Of a stretch of 64,000 bases of DNA, positions 31,611-35,767 are shown piece after piece. The translations under genes were made by a program, and so were the position numbers. Below the pieces are notes generated by a model. It was not told the origin of the DNA and did no database searches. It saw only the letters and a program-made list of their open reading frames with translations. This DNA is from Halobiforma lacisalsi AJ5 (GTDB lineage: Archaea; Halobacteriota; Halobacteria; Halobacteriales; Natrialbaceae), in the NCBI RefSeq assembly GCF_000226975.2, contig NZ_CP019285.1:372001-436000 (forward strand), in the 5' to 3' direction. The stretch's first letter is position 1. Each line of letters opens with the position of its first letter.

Positions 31611-32372
31611 TCACCGTCGACGCGTCCCCGGAACGAGCGCGACGACCGCGACCACAACCCCGAGCGCCACTGCGAGCGCGAGCAGGCCCGTGAATCCGGG
31701 CACCGGTTCCGAGTCGGTGTCGCCGGACTCCGACCCTGCTCCCGAACTGTTGGCCGGTGTCCCTTCGGAACCGGGATCGGTCGCATCCGAATCGGTTGCG
31801 GGCTCGCCGACCGTTACCGTCCCCGCACCGAGCGTCGGATCGACTGCGCTGCCGCCGTCAGCGTCGACCTGCGCGTTCGACACCCGTAACTCCGTTTCCC
31901 CGGGGGCAACGCCGGTGACGGCGACTCGTGCCAGCGTGACGTTCGCCGCGCCGTCCGTAACCGCGTCGTCGAGGTCGACGGCCTCGAGGGTGACCGACCG
32001 CTCGTCCGCGCTCACGACCGGATCGGTGGTGATCCCGAACTGCTCCGGGTAGCTCGCGTCCGAAACCGTCGCGACCCCGGCCGACTCGAGTTCGAGTTCG
32101 AGCGTAAAGCCCGCGAGCCCGTTCGGCGCGTCGGTCAGCGCGACGCGGTGAATGCCTGGCTCCCCATCGGCGGGATCGCCGACCGTCGCGTCCGAGACGA
32201 CGATTTCGGGGCCCTCGGTCGCGCTCGCCGCGGGTCCGACCGCGAGCGTCGCCACGAGCGCGAGGCAGGCCCCGGCCATGCCGAGCCCGACGAGAACGCT
32301 CCCGATCGACGGCCGCCGGAATCGCGACACGACTGCACGCCGGCAGGTTCGGATCGACGGTGTCCCGGTCAC
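31611..32372 (-). CDS. Surface-anchored cohesin-like protein with PGF-CTERM tail
   Basis: A 253-residue secreted protein. The basic N terminus is followed by a signal helix (about 25-50, ending PAASATEG). Residues about 53-188 form a cohesin-like beta domain: LTDAPNGLAGFTLELEL and DDAVTDGAANVTLARV correspond to the same positions in the cohesin module of the PhoX gene upstream. A Ser/Asp/Gly linker leads to VPGFTGLLALAVAL, a membrane helix and an Arg cluster, i.e. a PGF-CTERM signal processed by archaeosortase and lipid-anchored. It starts with GTG overlapping the PhoX stop by 3 bases, so the two are coupled. Confidence 0.8.
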   Translation of the reverse strand: MTGTPSIRTCRRAVVSRFRRPSIGSVLVGLGMAGACLALVATLAVGPAASATEGPEIVVSDATVGDPADGEPGIHRVALTDAPNGLAGFTLELELESAGVATVSDASYPEQFGITTDPVVSADERSVTLEAVDLDDAVTDGAANVTLARVAVTGVAPGETELRVSNAQVDADGGSAVDPTLGAGTVTVGEPATDSDATDPGSEGTPANSSGAGSESGDTDSEPVPGFTGLLALAVALGVVVAVVALVPGTRRR

Positions 32373-35005
32373 AGTTCGTCGTACAGCGCGACGACGTCGT
32401 CGTAGTCGATGCGGCCGTTCTCGTTGAAGTCGAACGCCTCGTCGTTTAGCTGCACGGCGTCGTCCTCGAGGTGCTCGAACAGGACGACGACGTCGTCGTA
32501 GTCGAGCCGGCCGTTGCCGTTGACGTCCTCGAACCTGCCGTCGCCGTCGGGATCGGTCGGCGCGTCGGTCGGCCCCGATCCGCCACCGCCGATCGGCGGC
32601 GGGCCGGTCACGACGACGCTCGGCCGGGACTGCGGGTCGATTGAGGCGGCATCATCGTCGTCCAGAGCGTGGACGTCGATCGTCAGATCGGTCGTTCCCG
32701 GTCCGGTTCCCTCGAGTTCGAGCGTCGCCAGCGTGACCTGCCGCCCGGAGCCGATCTCGTCCTCGAGGTCAGCGAAGCGGAACTCGACGCTCGAGCCGTC
32801 TCCGACGGTCGGACCGCTGGTGAGTTCGAGCCCGTCGTGGTAGCTGGCGTCGACGATTTCGGCAACCGCTGGGTGTTCGACGGACACCGTAACCCGACCG
32901 CCCGCGATGCCGTCCGGCACCGACGAAACCGTGAGATCGACCTCGCCCGTCGCGCCGTGGCTGACGGCGAGCGAGTCGACGGTGATCGTCGTCGGTGGCT
33001 CGTACACCCACAGCGCGTCGTTGGGATACGAGCGGCCGAAGCGACCCTTGTCCTCACAGAGGAGAACGCGGCCGTCGTCCATCACCATCACGTTGTCGAG
33101 GTTGATGAGCGAGACGTCCTGCAGCGATTCGGGATCGCTGGGATTCGGGCCGACGATGACCGGCTCGAGCCGGGAGACGTCGTAGTGCTCGTCGAGTTCA
33201 CCCCGGTAGAGGAGGCCGGTGTCGACCTCGTCGAACCGAAGGTCACCCTGCTCGTCGGTCATCGAACCGCCCAGCGAGGAGATAGCGAAGTAGATGAAGT
33301 CGCCGGGTTCGGCCTCGTCGTGGGCGTCGATCCCTTCGGCCTTGTTGAACTCGACGGTAGCGCCGATCTCCTTCGCGGCCGCGCGAGTCTCGAGGAAGGG
33401 GACGCGACGAAGTTCCTCGTCGACGCCGTCGGGGCCGTACTCCTCGTACTGCCGGGCCCACTCGACGATCTCCTCGTCGGTGATGTAGTCCTGGTTGCCG
33501 TTGATCGCGACTTCCTCGTCGGCCTCGAGAAGCGCCTGCTCGAGGTCTTCCGCCCAGTCGGTTTCGGCGTGGGTCTCGAGGTAGTCGACCTGCGTGACGT
33601 CGTCGTACTCGGCGATCCAGGACTCGACCTCGGCGTTGCTGGCGGTTCCCAGCGGCAGCCACTCGACGTCGAGGTCGACCTCACCGACGGTTCCCGTGCC
33701 GACCTCGGTCGCTGCGATGGCGTACAGGGTTCCGCGGACGTCCATCGGATCGTCGTACTCGGTGATCGGCTCGTCGGCCACGAACTTGTAGATGCCCTTC
33801 GCACCGCCGTCGGAGGCGCCGTAGACCGTCTTCTCGTCGGGCATGAACTCCGGACACTCCCAGGCTGCACGGCCCATAACCCAGTGTTTCACTGGCTGCT
33901 GGTTCTCGGGATCGTCAGCCGTGGGATTGGTGATCTCGACGAAGTACCCGTAGCGGTACCGGTTGGGGAAGACATCCCCGATGGGCCGCCTCGTGTTCTC
34001 CCCTTCCTCGCGGTCGACCGGTTCGGCCCCTAGATAGTACGCGAGTTTCTCGTTGCCGGAGAGCGCCCAGGCCCCCGATGGGTACCAGGCGTCGTCGCCG
34101 AAGTGCTCCTCGAGAGCGTCGGTCACGTTCGGTGCGTTCGGTCGGTTCCAGAACTCGCTGCCGCCGCGGATACCGACGCCGCTACCTTCCTCGGTGATAT
34201 CGCTGACCGTGTGGGTGCCGCTGACCCTCGGATGGCCGTACTCTTCCTCGGCGGAGACCGGGGTCTCCCAGGGGGTCAGGTCGCCGTAACAGTTGATTTT
34301 CGTCCCGCCGAGTGCGCGGAAGGCGTCGGTGTTCTCGACCTGCAGCGCCCGCTCCAGATCGGCTTGCCAGTACCCGTCCTCGTCGCGGTATAGCGGCGTC
34401 CGGGAGATGCCACCGGGGCGCGTCTCGTGGTTCGTGAAGAGATAGCCCTCCGTGCCGTCCTCGGTCGTCGACACGAAGAAGTTCATGTCGGTGACGTCGC
34501 CGACGCCGACGTAGCTCTCGTCGACGAGGTCCGCGACGTCTTCGCCGTCGGGCGTCTCCTGGTGCCCCCAGCGTTCGGTCCCGCCGTTGATCTCGTCACC
34601 AGCCCGGGCGAGCAACCGATACTCGCCCGTTGCGGTCTTGACTTTCCGCTGCTCTTCTTCGGTTCGCGGGGGTTCCATCTCCTCGAACTCATCGTTTTTC
34701 CCGTTGAACGTGAACTGGAAGTCGTCGATGACGCCGACGCCACCCTCGTTCCACGGCTCCGGGTTGTCGGTGCTCGGGGCCTGGAGGCTGTACACCATTT
34801 CGCCGGTCTCGAAGACGAACGGGCCGGTGACCTCCGCGCCGAACGCCGTCGTCGAGAGTCGCTTCATCGACCCCTCGACGTACGGTGCTGCAGGCGTATC
34901 GTGTTCGTCCGGCCGCTCCTGTGCACTTGCGCTCCCGACCGCGCTGACGCCGACCGCGGCGGCGACGGACGAGGCCATCAGGTTTCGCCTGGTAAATTCG
35001 ACCAT
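32369..35005 (-). CDS. phoX: Tat-exported PhoX-type phosphatase with cohesin-like and dockerin modules
   Basis: An 878-residue multidomain exoprotein. A Tat signal (TRRNLMASSVAAAVG, Ala-Ser-Ala cleavage near residue 29) precedes a PhoX/DUF839 domain (about 45-660) with segments such as LFTNHETRPGG, WVMGRAAWECPE, KTVYGASDGGAKGIYKF and DNVMVMDDGRVLLCEDKG. PhoX enzymes are calcium- and iron-dependent alkaline phosphatases. Residues 673-800 form a cohesin-like domain (SSVPDGIAGGRVTVSVE, SGRQVTLATLELEGTG). Residues 817-878 hold two dockerin calcium-loop repeats, DVNGNGRLDYDDVVVLFE and DFNENGRIDYDDVVALYD. A dockerin-cohesin pair in one enzyme, next to an anchored cohesin protein, is unusual. Confidence 0.9.
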   Translation of the reverse strand: MVEFTRRNLMASSVAAAVGVSAVGSASAQERPDEHDTPAAPYVEGSMKRLSTTAFGAEVTGPFVFETGEMVYSLQAPSTDNPEPWNEGGVGVIDDFQFTFNGKNDEFEEMEPPRTEEEQRKVKTATGEYRLLARAGDEINGGTERWGHQETPDGEDVADLVDESYVGVGDVTDMNFFVSTTEDGTEGYLFTNHETRPGGISRTPLYRDEDGYWQADLERALQVENTDAFRALGGTKINCYGDLTPWETPVSAEEEYGHPRVSGTHTVSDITEEGSGVGIRGGSEFWNRPNAPNVTDALEEHFGDDAWYPSGAWALSGNEKLAYYLGAEPVDREEGENTRRPIGDVFPNRYRYGYFVEITNPTADDPENQQPVKHWVMGRAAWECPEFMPDEKTVYGASDGGAKGIYKFVADEPITEYDDPMDVRGTLYAIAATEVGTGTVGEVDLDVEWLPLGTASNAEVESWIAEYDDVTQVDYLETHAETDWAEDLEQALLEADEEVAINGNQDYITDEEIVEWARQYEEYGPDGVDEELRRVPFLETRAAAKEIGATVEFNKAEGIDAHDEAEPGDFIYFAISSLGGSMTDEQGDLRFDEVDTGLLYRGELDEHYDVSRLEPVIVGPNPSDPESLQDVSLINLDNVMVMDDGRVLLCEDKGRFGRSYPNDALWVYEPPTTITVDSLAVSHGATGEVDLTVSSVPDGIAGGRVTVSVEHPAVAEIVDASYHDGLELTSGPTVGDGSSVEFRFADLEDEIGSGRQVTLATLELEGTGPGTTDLTIDVHALDDDDAASIDPQSRPSVVVTGPPPIGGGGSGPTDAPTDPDGDGRFEDVNGNGRLDYDDVVVLFEHLEDDAVQLNDEAFDFNENGRIDYDDVVALYDEL

Positions 35006-35299
35006 GCAGCCGGAGAATGCTGAAATTATCAAATAGCGCTTTATAATATGGGCCTATACGAATGAATAGATGACCTTTTGGCCGATAGAATTATATATTC
35101 CGCCAGGACGGCCGATAGAGTTATGTGCGTTGCTAGCCGCCTCGTTCCGATCTCGAGTCCTATATAGCGATCCCTACGCCCGCAGTCGCGTCTCGTGAAG
35201 TGGGACCGGAGTTTGAACGCACCGTCGCGGCCCCGACTGGCCGGCGCCACGACGGCTGTCAGCGAAAAAGGAGTCGGTCAGCGGTTCTGCGGTCGCTCG
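35006..35299. promoter_or_regulatory. phoX upstream regulatory region with paired direct repeat
   Basis: Nearly 300 bases without a gene, strongly AT-rich next to phoX. TATA-like elements on the minus strand lie at about 35027-35035 and 35038-35045, 25-35 bases before ATG 35005. A 15-base direct repeat, GGCCGATAGAATTAT (35080-35094) and GGCCGATAGAGTTAT (35110-35124), has one mismatch and a 30-base period, i.e. about three helical turns. This is the arrangement of a two-site operator, plausibly for phosphate control of phoX. Confidence 0.55.

Positions 35300-35767
<468 letters not shown>

Follow-up and report, generated by a model that had tools for sequence, protein, structure and literature searches.

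The 64,000-nt stretch of the Halobiforma lacisalsi AJ5 genome analysed here (contig NZ_CP019285.1, positions 372,001 to 436,000; hereafter the window) carries two adjacent minus-strand genes, encoding a PhoX phosphatase with cohesin and dockerin modules and, directly downstream, a second cohesin protein with a putative membrane anchor. The locus is near-identical to that of Halobiforma haloterrestris (Natrialbaceae). Both open reading frames were confirmed at the coordinates of the original prediction, which had been made from the DNA sequence. The exoenzyme gene occupies 32369-35005 (878 amino acids (aa) plus stop; ATG at 35005, stop at 32369-32371; PF05787), and the partner gene occupies 31611-32372 (253 aa plus stop; GTG start at 32372) and encodes a signal peptide, a cohesin, an acidic linker and a C-terminal anchor. 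The PhoX stop and the partner's start share a 4-nt GTGA overlap (32369-32372), which makes translational coupling of both genes likely, and the pair is conserved far above chance, in line with the coupling that had been proposed.

The exoenzyme begins with a twin-arginine translocation (Tat) signal (MVEFTRRNLMASSVAAAVGVSAVGSASA, 34910-35005) without a lipobox Cys. In the alignment of homologues, the twin arginine is kept in every sequence bar two KR variants, and no Cys follows it. The PhoX beta-propeller domain (residues 40-668, 33002-34888) matched PF05787 with an E-value of 1.3e-20 as well as the PhoX chains 3zwu and 4amf of the PDB, so that the Tat signal and the PhoX domain were both identified correctly at the outset. 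Across 84 haloarchaeal PhoX sequences, C239, E253, E254, E383 and E557 are invariant, and so are the residues aligned with C179, E193, E194 and E273 of the P. fluorescens enzyme, which we take to be metal ligands. Because the equivalents of these four residues are invariant, the window PhoX is expected to be active. With weak scores, the N-terminal strand of haloarchaeal PhoX aligned with the C-terminal end of both 3zwu and PF05787, and the haloarchaeal enzyme appears to be circularly permuted relative to bacterial PhoX.

The Pfam cohesin model PF00963 matched neither beta domain of the window, that is, the enzyme-borne one (residues 672-802, 32600-32992) and the one of the anchor protein (residues 55-190, 31803-32210), while it did match 4/46 homologous enzyme cohesins and 5/41 anchored ones. 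For this reason, alignments were built from orthologues, followed by AlphaFold2 structure prediction of the enzyme's cohesin-dockerin fragment (mean predicted local distance difference test score, pLDDT, of 85.5) and of the anchor protein (pLDDT of approximately 95 over the beta domain). Foldseek placed the enzyme domain with type I cohesins at E-values of 1e-9 to 1e-10, and structure comparison with type I cohesins gave Z-scores of 16.3 for the enzyme and 15.6 for the anchor domain (2.0-2.4 Å over approximately 130 residues). The top fold matches of both domains are dockerin-binding cohesins, including the Archaeoglobus non-cellulosomal cohesin 2xdh. Both models display the nine-strand cohesin jelly roll, and since PF00963 sets a library threshold and not a structural criterion, the domains are named cohesins by their fold. 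Ordinary immunoglobulin (Ig) folds or carbohydrate-binding modules (CBMs), either of which would have spoken against the predicted cohesin-like character, were considered and found no support in the fold search. A PDB sequence search with the cohesin profiles returned no cohesin match, only dockerin and EF-hand chains. By hhalign, the enzyme and anchored cohesins are homologues of one another (E-value 1e-30, 31% identity).

The dockerin (residues 814-878, 32372-32566) contains the two loops DVNGNGRLDYDD and DFNENGRIDYDD. PF00404 scored it at 20.4 bits against a cut-off of 22.9 when proteins were scanned and at 24.6 bits, above the cut-off, in the genome search, and 44/46 of its homologues were matched. 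The calcium-ligand positions 1, 3, 5, 9 and 12 of the two F-hand repeats are nearly invariant in the 46 homologues, and in the window copy the recognition positions 10/11 are Tyr-Asp in both repeats. With both loops and the internal symmetry preserved, the predicted two-loop dockerin is intact. An extra calcium-binding-like loop of the form DPDGDG-x-F-E-D precedes it (32525-32554) and is near-invariant as well (D147, D149, D151 and G152 in 46/46 and E155 in 45/46 homologues, fragment numbering).

The partner protein ends in a PGF-CTERM-like tail (EPVPGFTGLLALAVALGVVVAVVALVPGTRRR, 31614-31709) composed of VPGF, a hydrophobic stretch and RRR. PF18204 matched 6/41 of the anchored-cohesin homologues, and the copy at locus L085 passes TIGR04126. 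Two PhoX enzymes without a dockerin carry a PGF-CTERM-like tail of their own, one falling just short of TIGR04126 (L143; 23.3 bits, cut-off 24.5) and one with a similar motif but no library match (L141), so that direct anchoring of PhoX appears to occur where docking is absent.

The link between the dockerin and the anchored-cohesin gene was followed in two sets of loci, of which the first comprised the best 80 named PhoX loci, among which close relatives are over-represented, and the second was drawn evenly from 293 haloarchaeal genomes of the order. In the first set, the anchored-cohesin gene lay directly downstream of 39 of the 45 PhoX with cohesin-dockerin, with one further linkage via a tandem PhoX copy (L067), and downstream of 0/36 PhoX without either module. 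The second set held 117 PhoX genes, 65 with the cohesin-dockerin tail and 52 without it. Here, an anchored-cohesin gene was located within 5 kb downstream in 58/65 dockerin-bearing versus 0/52 dockerin-less cases, and a stricter limit of 1.7 kb gave 56/65 versus 0/52 (Fisher p 3e-24). Approximately nine or ten changes of the dockerin fall on the PhoX tree. Seven to nine pairs are independent; in most of them the anchor followed the dockerin, and in none did it go in the opposite direction (sign test, p of approximately 0.01-0.02). These p-values are to be read as guides, given the surplus of close relatives among the 80 loci and a tree built with FastTree. Several haloarchaeal families possess the pair, and the dockerin is tightly coupled to the anchored-cohesin gene both genetically and in evolution.

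The same tail is found on other phosphorus enzymes, and the phosphatase-anchor system is thereby broader than first seen. The tail subfamily is that recognised by a profile derived from the PhoX copies, and carriers were counted at 180 bits or more. Next to the 65 PhoX (a tally including one contig-cut PhoX that scores below 180 bits), 12 carriers reached at least this score, namely seven PhoD, one 5'-nucleotidase, assigned by a C-terminal-domain match, and four SNase-domain proteins, with L173 counted among the last because it is near-identical to L148. An anchored cohesin of their own adjoins the SNase cassettes; the fetched PhoD genes have none beside them. In four Haloarcula-type genomes (G189, G123, G228 and G281), the anchor profile detected three cohesins, those of PhoX and PhoD and a single anchored one, so that the unlinked PhoX and PhoD would share one anchor. 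The Y-D/Y-E recognition residues are common to the dockerins of PhoX, PhoD and the 5'-nucleotidase (G221) and differ in most of the glycoside hydrolase (GH; GH10) and protease dockerins compared. The shared anchor and the recurring recognition residues are the main ground for considering a multi-enzyme assembly and not a mere tether.

Cohesin-dockerin tails also occur on other enzyme classes, and the modules are thus general in haloarchaea. The tails of the other fetched classes are clearly more distant from the PhoX-type tail, and the phosphorus bias holds for the PhoX-type subfamily only. Within these other classes, one locus with its neighbours (L149:1075-7431; G028:C23) is cellulosome-like, with a GH5 protein carrying eight cohesins, adjoining dockerin-bearing GH5/GH10 enzymes and a single anchored cohesin with Tat signal and PGF-type tail. 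Scaffoldin-like, dockerin-containing proteins with five and three cohesins stand beside dockerin-bearing enzymes at L174:3608-12093, a GH5 cluster, and at L175 (G285 and G198). The original prediction had suggested a search for further dockerin-bearing exoproteins in the same genome, and this yielded two dockerin proteins only, the PhoX and a subtilase. The latter (L146:3928-8609; C1:811927-816608) combines CARDB, cohesin and dockerin and is followed by a PGF-type protein of 323 aa, so that the two may form a second cassette laid out in the same way, with the match of the 323-aa protein to a cohesin being weak (hhalign probability 12%). Elsewhere in the genome, a third PGF-type protein (264 aa; C1:3137867-3138196; L004) has a sub-threshold cohesin match of 21 bits, and no nearby dockerin partner was identified for it.

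Drawing on the cohesin folds, the dockerin motif, the gene overlap, the co-inheritance of dockerin and anchor and the tail common to other phosphorus enzymes, all of them established computationally, we propose that the dockerins tether the phosphatases to the anchored cohesin, that the enzyme's own cohesin is able to take further enzymes, and that the whole constitutes a minimal cellulosome-like assembly for phosphate scavenging. We assign this reading a probability of approximately 70%. PhoX would fold in the cytoplasm and exit via the Tat route, after which its C-terminal dockerin would dock, probably in a calcium-dependent manner, to the cohesin of the co-translated and presumably membrane-anchored partner and keep the enzyme on the cell surface. 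The enzyme's own cohesin would remain free for a second dockerin, be it of another PhoX, a PhoD, a 5'-nucleotidase or a nuclease, where the genome has them. One anchor could thus hold a short chain of phosphorus-releasing enzymes, and inorganic phosphate might be released right beside the cell. As had been predicted, carbohydrates appear to play no part, there being no carbohydrate enzyme in the cassette. In its most ambitious form, a surface 'phosphatosome' of PhoX, PhoD, 5'-nucleotidase and nuclease, each with both modules and joined in a head-to-tail chain that hangs on a single membrane-anchored cohesin, would release phosphate from phosphoesters, nucleotides and DNA in the immediate vicinity of the cell; this extension is tentative, and we would sooner bet against it than for it.

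Several observations weigh against tethering to the anchored cohesin. The predicted PGF-CTERM anchor is the weakest part of the picture: the motif is readable and archaeosortase A (ArtA) is encoded in the same genome, but the window copy falls below library thresholds, with neither a Pfam nor an NCBIfam match. Outside the family, many anchors have just an ordinary transmembrane tail at their end. The residue corresponding to Leu83 of CipA, assigned by eye on the aligned sequences, is Arg in 41/46 enzyme cohesins and Glu in 41/41 anchored ones, for which reason the specificities of the two may differ. This Arg/Glu difference at the central face hints at different partners for the two cohesins without saying which, and in the SNase cassette, the pattern is the opposite of that in the PhoX pair. 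Furthermore, five loci of the first set (Halogranum, Halegenticoccus (two), Halocatena and Halalkalicoccus) have the cohesin-dockerin and no adjacent anchored cohesin, and in the four such genomes searched with the anchor profile, only the enzyme's own cohesin of this type was found. Either anchoring is not the sole role of the modules there, or the partner has diverged.

The same five loci favor self-assembly, in which the dockerin would bind the cohesin of another PhoX copy or of its own chain, giving polymers or a closed monomer, with the anchored cohesin as chain starter or minor partner. Each examined dockerin-bearing PhoX, PhoD, 5'-nucleotidase and SNase protein does have a cohesin as well, and tandem PhoX duplicates precede a single anchor gene in three cases (L067, G031 and G274). 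However, the dockerin was gained or lost jointly with the anchored cohesin in most lineages, and pure self-assembly needs no such coupling; we therefore regard it as a serious but secondary candidate. A little less likely still, and compatible with tethering, is a general haloarchaeal cassette for exoenzyme retention of which phosphorus enzymes are just the commonest cargo. The homologous modules in the GH5/GH10 cluster of L149, the GH5 cluster of L174 and the subtilase of the own genome (L146) fit this view, whereas the carriers at 180 bits and above are all phosphorus enzymes. Finally, the modules might bind other targets such as surface-layer glycans or surface polymers, the operon merely co-secreting two surface proteins; experiments on what cohesins and dockerins do in haloarchaea are scarce and the Pfam model misses the window domains, but this is improbable given fold matches to dockerin-binding cohesins at Z-scores of around 16, the retained calcium ligands, and an anchor gene that accompanies dockerin-bearing PhoX and never dockerin-less ones.

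Upstream of the PhoX gene, a TATA-like promoter box (TATTATAAA, 35040-35048, minus strand) starts 42 nt 5' of the start codon. In 52/76 PhoX genes, a box of this class is located no more than 70 nt from the start (shuffled expectation 0.96), and in 38 it begins at -42. Beyond this promoter, two 15-nt direct repeats of GGCCGATAGARTTAT with a spacing of 30 nt (35080-35124) represent a possible operator; apart from the window, they were seen only in L066, its near-identical sister. Other loci (L068, L067, L071, L084 and L103) contain a CAATAG element at approximately -119 upstream of PhoX, in several of them followed by a GTCAGAG-like sequence, which is possibly a phosphate-response site. No pst/pho genes were found among the scanned window neighbours when a Pho operon was sought beside the two genes. 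A conserved uncharacterised protein of approximately 140-155 aa without a Pfam or NCBIfam match is encoded at 35303-35767 (minus strand); its homologues adjoin PhoX in approximately 60/80 loci, dockerin present or absent, lying upstream of PhoX in Natrialbaceae and often downstream in other groups, and it may regulate PhoX or be its partner in export.

If the tethering reading is true, a cellulosome-like assembly would serve phosphorus instead of polysaccharide, and it would be a very simple one, built from one anchored cohesin and enzymes that each bring plug and socket. The scattered archaeal cohesin-dockerin modules would gain a testable job, predictions could be made as to which of the phosphatases secreted by haloarchaea stay bound to the cell, and salt-stable docking pairs would be on offer. 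As Haloarcula and other culturable haloarchaea possess the pair, deleting the genes should probably be practicable.

Archaeal cohesins and dockerins are already known, and a systematic link to phosphorus acquisition was not found in the literature searched. Polysaccharide enzymes of haloarchaea have been described as bearing dockerins (PMC10963439), and no paper on haloarchaeal phosphatases with a cohesin or dockerin was found, which is weak evidence of novelty because most subscription papers lay outside the search. PMC9012536 cites surveys and reports archaeal cohesin-dockerin binding as verified. It describes surface or secreted dockerin proteins of anaerobic methanotrophic (ANME) archaea, some with several cohesins, that resemble the present system; however, their cargo includes binding proteins of ATP-binding cassette (ABC) transporters, and no phosphatase cassette is described in the section consulted.

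With the clostridial cellulosome, the PhoX cassette shares the type I cohesin fold, the F-hand dockerin and, as predicted, a cell-surface cohesin as anchor. In contrast, it has one cohesin per protein and no multi-cohesin scaffoldin, contains neither a CBM nor a carbohydrate enzyme, and its enzyme bears both dockerin and cohesin. Glycoside hydrolase cohesins of Clostridium perfringens link enzymes outside a cellulosome. These domains (2jh2, 2w1n and 2vo8) are likewise enzyme-borne and among the top fold matches, but they reside on bacterial glycosidases, an unrelated enzyme class, and lack an anchored-cohesin gene. Bacterial PhoX (3zwu) has in common the propeller family, the conserved C179/E193/E194/E273 and Tat export, whereas the haloarchaeal form appears permuted and has gained the cohesin-dockerin. 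The closest layout is presumably that of AF2375/AF2376 in Archaeoglobus fulgidus, which we take to be adjacent non-cellulosomal genes, one with cohesin and dockerin and the other with a cohesin, in the same two-gene arrangement, and the Archaeoglobus cohesin 2xdh matches the folds of the window cohesins with Z-scores of 15.7 and 14.8. Unlike that pair, the haloarchaeal one has a defined phosphatase as its dockerin protein and a PGF-type anchor on the partner, recurs across several families, and shares its tail with other phosphorus enzymes.

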